Positions 19,036 through 30,917 of a stretch of DNA of 64,000 nt are shown here, one piece after another. Numbering within the stretch: position 1 is the stretch's first letter; each line of letters begins with the position of its first letter. Source of the stretch: Phycisphaerales bacterium (lineage in GTDB: Bacteria; Planctomycetota; Phycisphaerae; Phycisphaerales; SM1A02). The translations under genes were made by a program, and so were the position numbers. Location of the stretch: positions 1 to 64,000 of the forward strand of contig SIAM01000003.1 of NCBI GenBank assembly GCA_009691785.1, given 5' to 3'. The notes under the pieces were generated by a model, which saw only the letters and a list, made by a program, of their open reading frames with translations, searched no databases and was not told where the DNA came from.

Positions 19036-20559
19036 TTACTTTCCAGCTTCGCTGGCGACGGCCTTGGGCGCTTGATCCGGCGAAGATTGACGCTCCATTG
19101 CGCCTGGAATGTTGGATTCTGGCGCGCCTGAATTGCGCAGCGTTGTCATGAACGCAACCACCGCGGTGGTCTCGGCGCTGGAAAGATTTTTCCCGTAGGC
19201 CGGCATGTTGCCGCCGCCTTGTTGCACTTGCCGTACCAATTGGTCCCATGATTTGCGCGATCCAACATTGTCAAGATTGGGTCCACGCAATCCGCCTTGT
19301 CCACCCAAACTGTGGCAATTGCGACATTGACTGTGTTGCAAGACAAGCGCGCCCTGCATCTCAAGCGGCGTGCGCCCCACCAAATATTGCGGCGGCGTTG
19401 GCATGCTGGTCCAAGCGTCCATCACAGGACTCCACGCGCTGACCACACCCAACCATGTCAATGTTCCCAGTGCGGTGGCGATCAGCACATACGCAATCAC
19501 CGCGCCGGGGCGGCGACTTGGCGCGCGCTCGCCGCGATTGGAAATGAGCGGCAAGCCTAGAAGCGCCAAGACAACAATAGGCGGCGCAATCAACAACACC
19601 GCGGTTTCAATTTGCGGCGGCATCAACGCCATAGCCGTGAAGATCCACAGGAACGCGTAGTCGGGCCGCGGATTGGCGTCGATGATTGTTGGATTGGGAA
19701 TTCCGTTTGGTCCAACGGGTCCAAGGTACGCCGCTAAAAGTCCAACAATGATCAGCATCAATCCACAGAACACCATGTCGCGTTGCGCCGCGTCGGGCAT
19801 AAATGCAACGCCAGTCTTCTTGATGCGCTCCTCATATTGCGCCACATATGTTTTTGGATCCACCACCATGCCGGGCTTTGGCATTTCGCTAATTCCGTTT
19901 TTCAAAATCAGCGCCATATGCGCGCCAATGAGCCCAATTGTTAGGCCTGGCAGCACAAACACATGCAGCGCGAAGAAGCGACTGAGCGTGGCGCCGCCAA
20001 TGTATGGCCCGCCCAACATGACATTGCGCATCTGGTTTCCAAGCATGGGCACGCGGTCCACAATGGCCGCGCCAATGCCAAGGCCCCAATAGGCGTCTTG
20101 GTCCCAGCGCATGATTTGACCAGTGAAAGCCAGCGCCAATGTGCAGAACAACAACAGCACGCCAACCATCCACATGAGTTCACGCGGAAACTTGAACGAC
20201 GCGTGCAAGAACACCTGGCTCATGTGGATCACCACCATGAGAATCATGGCGTTGCTGCTCCACGCATGCAGCGCCCGCAACATCCAACCAAATGGAACTT
20301 GCTGATCGATGTATTGCAAACTGGAGTACGCCTCCGCGGCGCTGGGCACATACATGGTGGCCAGCAAAATGCCAGTGACCACTTGAATGCTGAAGAACAT
20401 CAGCGAGGCGCTGCCAAACACATACCACCACTTGGCGTCGCGCGGCACGCGGTGCGTCAAGATGGGCTGCACAAAAGTGATCACGCCAGAGCGCGACTCG
20501 GTCCAACCAAGCAGACCTCCTACCATTTTTATGCCAATATTTTTAATGGTGCGAAACAT
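19036..20559 (-). CDS. Cytochrome b of the quinol:cytochrome c reductase, with C-terminal cytochrome c domain
   Basis: 507 aa. Heme b ligand histidines appear in two helices: ALHAWSSNAMILMVVIH and FALHVFVLPGLTIGLIGAH. The C-terminal half is short, subunit-IV-like. The Qo-site PEWY motif reads PDYA (RPDYAFLW). After the last helix, residues about 405-480 form a cytochrome c domain with CRNCH and the Met ligand candidate NMPAYG. The ATG at 20559 shares one base with the Rieske stop (TAATG), so this start is preferred over a longer upstream frame. Fused cytochrome b-c chains are known in some Gram-positive-type bc complexes; here electrons could pass straight to the oxidase. Confidence 0.92.
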   Translation of the reverse strand: MFRTIKNIGIKMVGGLLGWTESRSGVITFVQPILTHRVPRDAKWWYVFGSASLMFFSIQVVTGILLATMYVPSAAEAYSSLQYIDQQVPFGWMLRALHAWSSNAMILMVVIHMSQVFLHASFKFPRELMWMVGVLLLFCTLALAFTGQIMRWDQDAYWGLGIGAAIVDRVPMLGNQMRNVMLGGPYIGGATLSRFFALHVFVLPGLTIGLIGAHMALILKNGISEMPKPGMVVDPKTYVAQYEERIKKTGVAFMPDAAQRDMVFCGLMLIIVGLLAAYLGPVGPNGIPNPTIIDANPRPDYAFLWIFTAMALMPPQIETAVLLIAPPIVVLALLGLPLISNRGERAPSRRPGAVIAYVLIATALGTLTWLGVVSAWSPVMDAWTSMPTPPQYLVGRTPLEMQGALVLQHSQCRNCHSLGGQGGLRGPNLDNVGSRKSWDQLVRQVQQGGGNMPAYGKNLSSAETTAVVAFMTTLRNSGAPESNIPGAMERQSSPDQAPKAVASEAGK

Positions 20560-21101
20560 TAGACCGTTTGCTCCAAGCCTGGAAGTCGTCCGGCATCGAT
20601 CAGCAATCGTCCGTTCACGATCTTCCATTTGTATTCAAACAATCCCCGCGGTGGTGGCCCACTGGCGTGGCTGCCGTCCTCGTAATACACGCCGCCGTGG
20701 CAAGGACACATGAACAATTTGCTTTGCTGGAACCATTTCACGGGGCAGCCCAAATGCGCGCAATTCACGGCAAATACTTGAAATTGCGCGGGCTTGTAGG
20801 AGCGCACCCACACCGCTTGCTCGGCGCTGGCGCCGTCGGTTGGCGCGGCGTTTGGATTGGTGAACTTGCCCAGGCGAGTTTCACCCTCTGGAAAATCAGC
20901 TGTGCCACCCAATTCAACCCAGGAGTTTTTGTACTTGCGCAACGCTGGAGTGATGGCGTAGCCAATCAACGGAATAGATGCGATGGCTCCGCCGATACCC
21001 ATGAGGCCAATTCCAAATTTCAACATAAATCCGCGGCGCGCGCTTGCTGGCGGCGTTTGCGGCGGTTGATTTGATGGTGTGTTTGAACAATCGCAACTCA
21101 T
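20559..21101 (-). CDS. Rieske iron-sulfur protein
   Basis: 180 aa. One N-terminal transmembrane anchor (FGIGLMGIGGAIASIPLIGYA) preceded by RRGF, suggestive of Tat export. The [2Fe-2S] ligands are in CAHLGCPVKWF and CPCHGGVYYE, followed by GPPPRGL. It accepts electrons from quinol in the bc complex. The gene starts nine bases after the di-heme cytochrome gene and overlaps cytochrome b by one base, the QcrC-QcrA-QcrB order known from actinobacteria. Confidence 0.95.
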   Translation of the reverse strand: MSCDCSNTPSNQPPQTPPASARRGFMLKFGIGLMGIGGAIASIPLIGYAITPALRKYKNSWVELGGTADFPEGETRLGKFTNPNAAPTDGASAEQAVWVRSYKPAQFQVFAVNCAHLGCPVKWFQQSKLFMCPCHGGVYYEDGSHASGPPPRGLFEYKWKIVNGRLLIDAGRLPGLEQTV

Positions 21102-27836: not shown

Positions 27837-27959
27837 TTGTAGACCTTCCCGCCGACGGCGTCGCTTGTCAATAGGCATCGCGCAATTTTTATCATTCGTG
27901 CCACTGGCACGCTTTCACTTGTTACTCTTATCTTCCTACACCCCTCATTGGAGATTCTC

Positions 27960-29105
27960 ATGTCCGCTCCCGCATCCACTGGCGATCCAAGTTCAAATCC
28001 TGTTCACCACGACGCAGGCACAAGCCCTGGCGAGGGCAAAAAGATCTGGGATAGCTGGCTGAAGGCCATCATTGCCATCAATGGAAGCGATTTGATTATT
28101 AAGAGCGGCATGGCGCCGCGCATTCGCCACAAGGGACAGTTGCAACCGCTGAAGTGTCCCGCGGTGAAGCCGGAGGATTTATTTCAGATGGCAAAAGATG
28201 TGCTGGACAAATCCCAGTACGACCTGTTCTGCCGTAAGGGTCAAATTGATTTTGCGTATGGTTACGATCCAAAGAACCGCTTCCGCGTGAACTTGTTCAT
28301 GGCGCGCGGCACGCCCAGTGTGGCTGCTCGATTGATCTCCAGCAATATTCGCCGCTTTGAAGATTTGTATTTGCCCCCAATCCTGGGTGAAATTTCCATG
28401 CTCGCCCAAGGAATGATTTTGCTTTCGGGCGTCACGGGCAGCGGCAAGAGCACCACTATTGCCGCCATGATTCAATTTGTGAATGAGCGCAAGAAAGTGC
28501 ACATTGTCACGCTGGAAGATCCGATTGAATATGTCTTCACCGACGACAAGGCCATGATCAACCAGCGCGAGGTTGGAATTGATTGCGCCACATTCAACGA
28601 GGCGCTGCGCGCGCTGGTGCGCGAGAATCCAGACGTGGTTCTGGTTGGCGAAATGCGCGATCACGAAACATTTGAGGCCGCCATTCGCGCCGCTGAAACC
28701 GGCCACTTGGTGTTTGGAACCATCCACGCCTCCAGCGCGTGGCAGACCTTTGGCCGTATTTATGATTTGTTCCCGCAATCAGAGCGCGATCAAATTTGCA
28801 AGCTTTTAGCCTTCAATTTGCGCGCAATTATTTATCAAAAGTTGCTGCCCACCCTGCACGAGAACATCGCGCGCTTGCCGGCGCTGGAAATTTTAATCAA
28901 CACCCCCGTCGTGCAAAAATATATTTTGGAGCGCCGCGAAGGCGAGTTGCTTGACATCATGCGCCAAAGCGCCTCCGAAGGAATGATGGACTTCACATCA
29001 AGCCTGGTGAAATTGGTCGAAGGTGAATGGGTGCACACCAATGTCGCGTTGCAATCCACGCCAAAACCAGAGGAACTTAAAATGCGCTTGAAGGGCATTT
29101 CTTAA
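27960..29105 (+). CDS. PilT/PilU-like type IV pilus retraction ATPase
   Basis: 381 aa, soluble hexameric ATPase of the GspE/PilT family. Walker A GVTGSGKST (157-165), Asp box VTLEDPIEYVF, Walker B region DVVLVGEMRDHETFEAA and the His box HLVFGTIHASSAWQT are intact. The N-terminal 25 residues are a non-conserved linker. The start at 27960 is supported by GGAG six bases upstream. The next gene encodes a degenerate membrane-anchored relative, six bases after its stop, so the pair probably works together. No pilin, PilM-Q or prepilin peptidase gene is in the window, so its role could be pilus retraction or another motor function. Confidence 0.9.
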   Translation: MSAPASTGDPSSNPVHHDAGTSPGEGKKIWDSWLKAIIAINGSDLIIKSGMAPRIRHKGQLQPLKCPAVKPEDLFQMAKDVLDKSQYDLFCRKGQIDFAYGYDPKNRFRVNLFMARGTPSVAARLISSNIRRFEDLYLPPILGEISMLAQGMILLSGVTGSGKSTTIAAMIQFVNERKKVHIVTLEDPIEYVFTDDKAMINQREVGIDCATFNEALRALVRENPDVVLVGEMRDHETFEAAIRAAETGHLVFGTIHASSAWQTFGRIYDLFPQSERDQICKLLAFNLRAIIYQKLLPTLHENIARLPALEILINTPVVQKYILERREGELLDIMRQSASEGMMDFTSSLVKLVEGEWVHTNVALQSTPKPEELKMRLKGIS

Positions 29106-29111
29106 ATCGCA

Positions 29112-30917
29112 ATGAATCAAATGATATTTCTCCTTGCGCAAAATGTCTCCAGCGAATTTCTGCTTGACCCCATCAAGCCACTGTTTCTGTTTGTGACAAC
29201 CTTGATCGCCAGCGCGCTTGTTTCCAAACTTGTTTCAGATATCCACCAATGCGGCTTGCCTTCTTTCAAGTGGCATGGAATTTTAATGAGCGGTCTTGTG
29301 GCCGGGCTTTTTGCGGGGCTCTTTATTCCAATTTTTTGGATCAGTTGGCCAGCGCAAATCCTTGTCACCGTGAGTCCAATTCTTTTGTATTGGAAAGCCC
29401 GCAACGCGGTTGTATCTGACAAACAAAAATTTTTCATTGGCGGCGACAAGGTTCGAGCCTTCTTCAAGAAACGTGGAAAGTCCAAGGGGCGAGCTGGAGG
29501 AACTCTTTCGTTTAAAGACTTGAATAAAAAAGATAGATTGAATCCTGGAAAAGACGATCCACTTCTGCCGGCATTTCATGCCGCTGACAAATTGCTTAGC
29601 GAGGCGTTGCTGCAACGAGCTTCCCGCATTGATCTGCTTGTGAAATCAGATGGCGTCACCACCACGATCACGGTGGATGGAATTCGAATCAAAGTGGAAA
29701 GTTCCACAGTTGAGATCACAATGGCAATGATTGATTTTCTAAAGGATCTGTGCGGACTGGATGTGAAGGAGCGCCGCAAGCGTCAGAGTGGATCATGCTG
29801 GGCCGTCAATGATGAAACTCTTATTCCACTTGCTTTCTCAATCGCGGGCTCATCCGCTGGCCAACAAATGCGCCTTGATTTCGACCTAGCGAAAAGACTA
29901 TCGCGAACTATTGGTCAAATTGGATTTTTGCCCTCGCAAGAGAAGGTGCTGAAGGAACTCGCAGATCCAATGTCACGCGGCGGCGTTGTTCTTGTCAGCG
30001 CGGCGCCCGGCCAAGGCTTAACCTCCACATGTTTGGCGTTGCTGACGGGGCATGACGCGTTCACGGCCGCGGTCAAGACATTGGAAAAAAAACTGGTTCA
30101 CCGACTTGATGGAGTCGATCATCAAGCTTGGACATCGAGCCAGGGCGGCGTTGACTATCCAACCCAATTACAATCCATCATTCGCCGCAGTCCTGATGTT
30201 GTCTATGTCGAGGATATTTCCGAAGTAGGCGTGGGCAAACTGGTCGCTGCGCCAAACAATATTGACCAGCGTTTTTATATCGCCATGCCATTGGATGGCG
30301 TGGCCGCAACCATCACCGAATGGTTCAAAGCCGTGGGCAATGTCCCACTCGCTGCGGCACCTTTGCGATTGGTGATTACCCAAAAATTATGCCGCAAACT
30401 ATGCACCGCCTGTCGTGTGGGATACCAACCATCACCTGAGCAAGCTAAAAAACTTGGCATTGCCGCGGGCAAACAAGTGGAATTATTCAAATCCAGCGGA
30501 AAAGTTCAGGTGGGCAATAAAGTGATCGACTGTCCATTGTGCAATGGAACGGGTTATGTGGGCCAAATCATTGTCAGCGAAATATTTATCATAGATGAAG
30601 AGGCGCGTGGTTTCTTAGCCAAAGGCGATCTCAAGAGCGCCTACAACTCGTCGCGCATGAAACACAAATTGCCTGGAATTCAAGAGTCTGCATTGTTGCG
30701 CGTACGCGATGGAACAACCAGCTTGGAAGAAGCAATTCGAATTCTCACGCCAGCAAACAAGCCCACGGCCGCCGCCGAGCCTGGATCAAAACCAACAACT
30801 CAAGCTCCTGCAACTCCTACAACCACCAAGCCTGCCGCCGCGCCTGGAGCAAAACCAGCAGCAAATCCAGCAGCAAAATCGGCAGTGCCTATCAACAAGC
30901 CCAAGGCCTCACCATGA
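29112..30917 (+). CDS. Membrane-anchored PilB/GspE-like protein lacking the Walker A lysine
   Basis: 601 aa. The N-terminus has two or three membrane helices (PLFLFVTTLIASALVSKLV, ILMSGLVAGLFAGLFIPIFW, and ILVTVSPILLYW), unlike normal PilB/GspE. Residues 155-500 follow the GspE fold, but the Walker A position reads APGQGLTST (298-306): Thr304 replaces the essential Lys. The Walker B-like DVVYVEDISEV remains, as does the zinc tetracysteine set (CRKLCTAC near 430 and CPLCNGTGY near 477). The tail is Pro/Ala/Lys-rich. It is probably not an active ATPase but could bind the neighbouring PilT-like motor. The stop overlaps the start of the CvpA-like gene. Confidence 0.8.
   Translation: MNQMIFLLAQNVSSEFLLDPIKPLFLFVTTLIASALVSKLVSDIHQCGLPSFKWHGILMSGLVAGLFAGLFIPIFWISWPAQILVTVSPILLYWKARNAVVSDKQKFFIGGDKVRAFFKKRGKSKGRAGGTLSFKDLNKKDRLNPGKDDPLLPAFHAADKLLSEALLQRASRIDLLVKSDGVTTTITVDGIRIKVESSTVEITMAMIDFLKDLCGLDVKERRKRQSGSCWAVNDETLIPLAFSIAGSSAGQQMRLDFDLAKRLSRTIGQIGFLPSQEKVLKELADPMSRGGVVLVSAAPGQGLTSTCLALLTGHDAFTAAVKTLEKKLVHRLDGVDHQAWTSSQGGVDYPTQLQSIIRRSPDVVYVEDISEVGVGKLVAAPNNIDQRFYIAMPLDGVAATITEWFKAVGNVPLAAAPLRLVITQKLCRKLCTACRVGYQPSPEQAKKLGIAAGKQVELFKSSGKVQVGNKVIDCPLCNGTGYVGQIIVSEIFIIDEEARGFLAKGDLKSAYNSSRMKHKLPGIQESALLRVRDGTTSLEEAIRILTPANKPTAAAEPGSKPTTQAPATPTTTKPAAAPGAKPAANPAAKSAVPINKPKASP

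Follow-up and report, generated by a model that had tools for sequence, protein, structure and literature searches.

A conserved planctomycete gene trio combines an intact, dedicated PilT with a membrane-anchored GspE-like protein that has lost its catalytic residues in the Phycisphaerae

In type II secretion systems (T2SSs), a normal GspE is docked to GspL through its N1 domain. Two other described systems place a motor ATPase beside a second protein, namely the PilT and PilU motors of type IVa pili, one of which depends on the other (PMC6762196), and the archaellum, in which ArlI (FlaI), an active PilT/VirB11-type ATPase, is combined with a nucleotide-binding partner, ArlH (FlaH), below the membrane (PMC6011876). 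Members of each superfamily concerned here are already known, and PilT/PilU and FlaI/FlaH are functional analogues of paired motors. The residues responsible for catalysis have been described in PilB of G. metallireducens and include Walker A, the Asp-box Glu (for Mg), and the catalytic Glu, together with two arginine fingers (R271 and R286), which come from the neighbouring packing unit and act on the neighbour's nucleotide (PMC5424180).

Work on motors of the PilT/GspE superfamily has dealt with them as components of pili and secretion systems, whereas the locus described here comprises three closely packed genes with no pilus genes among them. It lies in a stretch of DNA of 64,000 nucleotides, referred to here as the window. 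The genes are arranged in the order dedicated PilT, (pseudo-)GspE, and CvpA-like:

27960..29105, + strand, PilT/PilU-family ATPase, the dedicated motor of the trio (open reading frame listed from TTG at 27948; ATG at 27960)
29112..30917, + strand, membrane-anchored PilB/GspE-fold pseudo-ATPase, 601 aa
30914..32587, + strand, CvpA-like membrane protein, 557 aa, with four transmembrane helices (residues 2-121) and a beta-rich domain (about residues 135-550)

The start codon of the middle gene is located 6 bases past the stop of the intact PilT-like gene, exactly as initially annotated, and the start codon of the CvpA-like gene, a third conserved partner that the initial annotation had missed, overlaps the stop of the middle gene (ATGA). 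Elsewhere in the window, positions 19036-20628 on the minus strand encode a protein that resembles cytochrome b and bears a haem-c motif (CRNCH) at its C-terminal side. A Rieske-like protein and oxidases are encoded next to it, and it is possibly a fused bc complex subunit.

The PilB/GspE-like fold proposed for the middle protein is evident from both profile and structural comparisons. Residues 157-543 match Pfam T2SSE with 79.9 bits (cut-off, 24.9), corresponding to the N2D plus C-terminal domain fold, and the AlphaFold2 model of the protein (mean pLDDT, 87.5) matches PilF of T. thermophilus (5oiu) with a Foldseek E-value of 2.8e-30 and a target TM-score of 0.85; other PilB/GspE structures also match the body of the model. 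Overall identity to solved PilB, PilF, and GspE proteins is 20-23%, and the scores of the middle protein against the curated equivalog models for GspE (112.2 versus 630.25 bits needed) and PilB (99.0 versus 675.65 bits needed) are below those required. The soluble N1 domain is absent, and three transmembrane helices are found in its place, which fixes the number that had previously been put at two or three; the basic stretch that follows them is probably cytoplasmic. The zinc cysteines, also recognized earlier, are all present. The relevant features of the middle gene are as follows:

29172..29411, + strand, three N-terminal transmembrane helices, residues 21-46, 51-71, and 75-100 (AlphaFold2 helices and hydropathy over family members)
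30000..30026, + strand, Walker A remnant AAPGQGLTS, residues 297-305 (Lys column, Leu303)
30084..30098, + strand, Asp-box remnant EKKLV, residues 325-329 (Glu kept in all, Asp lost)
30192..30224, + strand, Walker B/catalytic Glu remnant PDVVYVEDISE, residues 361-371
30282..30296, + strand, His-box remnant, residues 391-395 (His column, Pro393)
30402..30413, + strand, zinc cysteine pair C431/C434 (kept in 108/112 class orthologues)
30531..30542, + strand, zinc cysteine pair C474/C477 (kept in 112 and 108 of 112 class orthologues, respectively)

In an alignment of the middle protein with five active paralogues that its own genome encodes, AAPGQGLTS fell opposite GPTGSGKTT. The reported loss of the Walker A Lys is therefore real, but the position of the Lys is taken by Leu303 and not by Thr304 as initially annotated; the latter is the retained Thr/Ser that follows the Lys column. 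Among 112 distinct orthologues from the class of the window's genome, the Phycisphaerae (one further table row, L056, is the canonical PilB of the genome itself and was taken out of the count), the Lys column is occupied by Leu in 78, by Arg in 15, and otherwise by Val, Gln, Ala, Met, Thr, or Ser, and by Lys in none. The orthologues of this class have also lost both arginine fingers (columns mapped through the profile alignment), the Asp-box Asp, the catalytic Glu, and the His-box His, the corresponding residues in the window being A241, D256, K326, D368, and P393. No catalytic residue out of six is left in 85 of the 112 class members, one is left in 20, and two in 7, whereas all six are kept in the 17 Lys-bearing relatives found in other classes (17/17) and in all canonical paralogues. 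Because Lys is absent from all 112 class orthologues and the five other catalytic residues are gone too, its loss is neither a chance event nor an error in a single genome. The membrane pseudo-ATPase of the initial annotation thus proves to be a conserved protein that is inactive by sequence, with at most two of the six residues in any class member.

Loss of the catalytic motifs might be taken to mean that the middle gene is degenerating, functionless, and on its way out. This explanation can hardly be credited, as over 100 species-level genomes of one class contain a full-length open frame with fixed new residues, the gene is present in 60 of the 61 relatives of the window's genome, and the fold and zinc site are conserved. 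G302 and the Asp-box residue E325 are likewise conserved in the class despite the loss of catalysis, and a His314-Asp315 pair has appeared as a new signature (His in 110/112 and Asp in 112/112). This pair (30051-30056, residues 314-315) is located right behind the P-loop helix, and its His is not found in active relatives. The conservation of the fold, the zinc site, G302, and E325, together with the fixation of H314-D315 in the class, argues that the middle protein is under constraint and is not decaying. Some of the same residues would also be expected in a protein that binds nucleotide without hydrolysing it and acts as a sensor gating PilT: the GxG-x-[TS] pattern and Glu325 of the Asp box are kept in nearly all members (the latter would correspond to the Mg ligand E357 of PilB, if E325 is equivalent), and the invariant His-Asp pair is new. 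However, such a sensor is improbable in a class that has lost the Lys, the Asp-box Asp, both arginine fingers, the catalytic Glu, and the His, and in which hydrophobic residues predominate among the replacements of the Lys (Leu in 78/112).

Each class member taken from the phylum sample carries the middle gene, and the named records of the family are Phycisphaerae/Phycisphaerales MAGs, many of them from lakes and seas. Families f32, f39, and f53 of the phylum contain the same gene, mostly with a hydrophobic N-terminus, and every catalytic motif is present. Since these relatives in other classes and families (the 17 mentioned above; f32, f39, and f53) keep all catalytic residues, the most likely ancestral state is an active GspE-like ATPase anchored in the membrane. 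Homologues with Lys in the same column are therefore found in the phylum's other classes but not among the 112 class orthologues, and they point to a derived, lineage-specific loss rather than to activity of the window's protein. Two more Lys-less lineages, f73 and f82, were identified outside the window's class. In the tree of the companion PilT, both are placed beside f32 and away from the window's class, and a topology that unites all Lys-less lineages in one clade is rejected by the PilT data (p-AU 0.00015). Provided that PilT was inherited with the operon, catalysis has thus probably been lost independently at least twice. In the tree of the middle protein, the Lys-less lineages cluster weakly (90/74), and a grouping of f32, f73, and f82 is not rejected (p-AU 0.198). 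Long branches may contribute to the Lys-less grouping in this tree, which, taken alone, is compatible with a single loss.

The PilT of the trio, a motor of the pilus-retraction type described as intact from the outset, exceeds the cut-off of the curated PilT/PilU model TIGR01420 (388.6 bits; cut-off, 319.1) and retains whole catalytic motifs, i.e. Walker A (GVTGSGKST), the Asp box, the catalytic Glu, and the His box. The Walker A Lys is similarly kept in the PilT partners, both in the class (92/93) and outside it (11/11). The AIRNLIRE motif of type IVa PilT is altered to TPVVQKYILERRE in the trio PilT and is strongly conserved in this form in the class; the same region of the type IV pilus (T4P) PilT of the genome reads TPAISNLIRESK, and the two proteins share only 36% identity. 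Exactly one trio-type PilT per genome was detected in all 20 genomes checked (545-614 bits; other PilTs, ≤434), even where the gene is not adjacent to the middle gene. As trio-type PilT genes also occur without the other two genes beside them in many other families of the phylum (including L218-L236), this PilT does not always need the middle protein. In one MAG (L217:6553-7674), two open frames of 136 and 221 aa take the place of a single trio-type PilT gene, reflecting a frameshift or an assembly error. The idea that the middle protein keeps Lys only where its PilT partner is missing was rejected, because a trio-type PilT is likewise encoded, sometimes elsewhere on the chromosome, in the genomes whose middle protein is active. 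Apparent PilT-pseudo-GspE gene fusions (open reading frames of 755-1033 aa) were rejected as well, being 5' frame extensions that overlap a separate PilT gene.

The common superfamily fold, the rank of PilT-type matches under PilB in the fold search, and an operon with nearly touching genes would all suit a mixed ring, in which pseudo-subunits and PilT form one heterohexamer and the dead subunits set its symmetry or asymmetry. This arrangement appears quite improbable, as both arginine fingers are lost, so that a neighbouring PilT site would not be completed in the usual way, and as the middle protein of other classes is a full GspE with interface residues of its own.

The CvpA-like protein was modelled with a pLDDT of 89.4, and its four transmembrane helices (residues 2-21, 23-52, 59-85, and 94-121) mostly exceed 90. 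The Pfam Colicin_V match (residues 4-128; E-value, 1.6e-4) has a score of 22.1 bits, below the gathering cut-off of 29.3. Foldseek returned nothing under an E-value of 0.001 for the beta-rich domain in the PDB, and VIA-align gave Z-scores only up to 6.5, to common beta-sandwiches and mostly over residues 208-346, with no convincing match. In MarP-type proteins, an extracytoplasmic domain is located behind four N-terminal transmembrane helices, and by analogy with this CvpA/MarP arrangement, the beta-rich domain is probably located in the periplasm.

After removal of duplicates, synteny was counted at loci with enough flanking sequence. PilT is directly upstream of the middle gene in 101 of 104 class loci, and the CvpA-like gene is directly downstream in 102 of 102; outside the class, the corresponding numbers are 11/20 and 14/20. 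The three class loci without PilT directly upstream (L153, L155, and L156) belong to closely related MAGs in which the pseudo-GspE and CvpA-like genes are present. In the window and in the neighbourhoods read from other lineages, no pilin, platform (PilC/GspF), or secretin genes adjoin the trio. The earlier suggestion of a system without classic pilus genes accordingly applies to the trio locus but not to the genome, other contigs of which carry a T2SS cluster with GspE/F and pseudopilin-like genes (C15, L059) and T4P-type motor clusters with PilB and PilC (C1, L058; C5, L056), the cluster on C5 including a separate PilT. An FHA-like GspE is also encoded apart from the trio on contig C21 (L057).

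The presence of these clusters, with their PilB, PilC, and second PilT, raises another explanation, namely that the trio is an accessory of the genome's own T4P or T2SS, with its PilT working as a second, PilU-like motor on a shared PilC/GspF platform and the pseudo-GspE modulating or capping active PilB/GspE rings. A second motor that depends on PilT is known in PilU (PMC6762196). In addition, PilC/GspF is present in 61 of 61 relatives, so that no genome parts the trio from a type IV filament (T4F) platform, and co-occurrence is for this reason compatible with dependence on ordinary T4F machinery. The explanation is nevertheless unlikely given the neighbourhoods described above, the low identity between the trio PilT and the T4P PilT, the altered AIRNLIRE region, and the fact that the trio has membrane partners of its own.

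We give about an even chance to the reading that the trio constitutes one inner-membrane machine with PilT as its sole ATPase and the middle protein as a non-catalytic membrane adaptor for PilT. Recruitment or regulation of PilT by the middle protein, as initially proposed, is plausible. In such a machine, ATP hydrolysis would be confined to the dedicated PilT hexamer, and the middle protein would be a former GspE-type motor subunit that now serves as an adaptor. Its own three helices would tether it to the membrane, standing in for the N1 domain and GspL docking, and its N2D and C-terminal domains would form a platform below the membrane on which PilT sits. The middle protein would then pass the conformational cycle of PilT to the CvpA-like protein, whose four helices would span the membrane. 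Complex formation is what we infer from synteny and co-occurrence, and this direction of force transmission and a substrate in the envelope are likewise putative. More tentatively, and with somewhat less than even likelihood, the trio may represent a phylum-wide non-pilus machine that is driven by a dedicated PilT and in which the membrane-anchored GspE-like and CvpA-like proteins replace PilB, PilM/GspL, and PilC, the GspE-like subunit having lost catalysis at least twice independently and become a pure adaptor.

Conservation of the trio extends through the class and into several further lineages of the phylum, in which little is understood of the envelope and of surface structures. Because catalysis has repeatedly been lost from one subunit while the other stays intact, the trio amounts to a natural experiment in how paired motors divide their labour (cf. 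PilT/PilU), in a small and directly testable set of three proteins. The arrangement appears to be new, as had been supposed: in the literature searched, which lay largely outside subscription papers, no description was found of the trio, of a fixed GspE/PilB pseudo-ATPase, or of a planctomycete PilT/CvpA arrangement. The trio thus points to a membrane machine not described before, one of whose motor proteins may have turned into a fixed adaptor for the other.

Compared with PilB/GspE (T2SSE, PF00437), the middle protein shares the N2D and C-terminal domain fold and the four zinc cysteines, but it has three transmembrane helices in place of N1 and has lost the Walker A Lys, the arginine fingers, the Asp-box Asp, the catalytic Glu, and the His box, and its locus lacks pilin, PilC, and secretin genes. 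The CvpA-like protein resembles CvpA (Colicin_V, PF02674) and MarP in having four N-terminal transmembrane helices followed by a putative extracytoplasmic domain; it differs in scoring under the Pfam gathering cut-off and in its beta-rich C-terminal domain without a convincing PDB match. As in PilT-PilU of type IVa pili, two superfamily members are encoded back to back, although PilU is a soluble, active ATPase of the PilT clade, whereas the middle protein belongs to the PilB/GspE clade, is membrane-anchored, and has no catalytic residues. The ArlI-ArlH system likewise pairs an active PilT/VirB11-type ATPase with a nucleotide-binding partner under the membrane; FlaH, however, is a KaiC/RecA-type protein and, unlike the middle protein, is neither a PilB/GspE paralogue nor membrane-spanning. 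In GspE-GspL docking, finally, the GspE ring is similarly held at the inner membrane, whereas the anchor of the middle protein is covalent, being part of the same chain, and the ATPase of this class is inactive by sequence.
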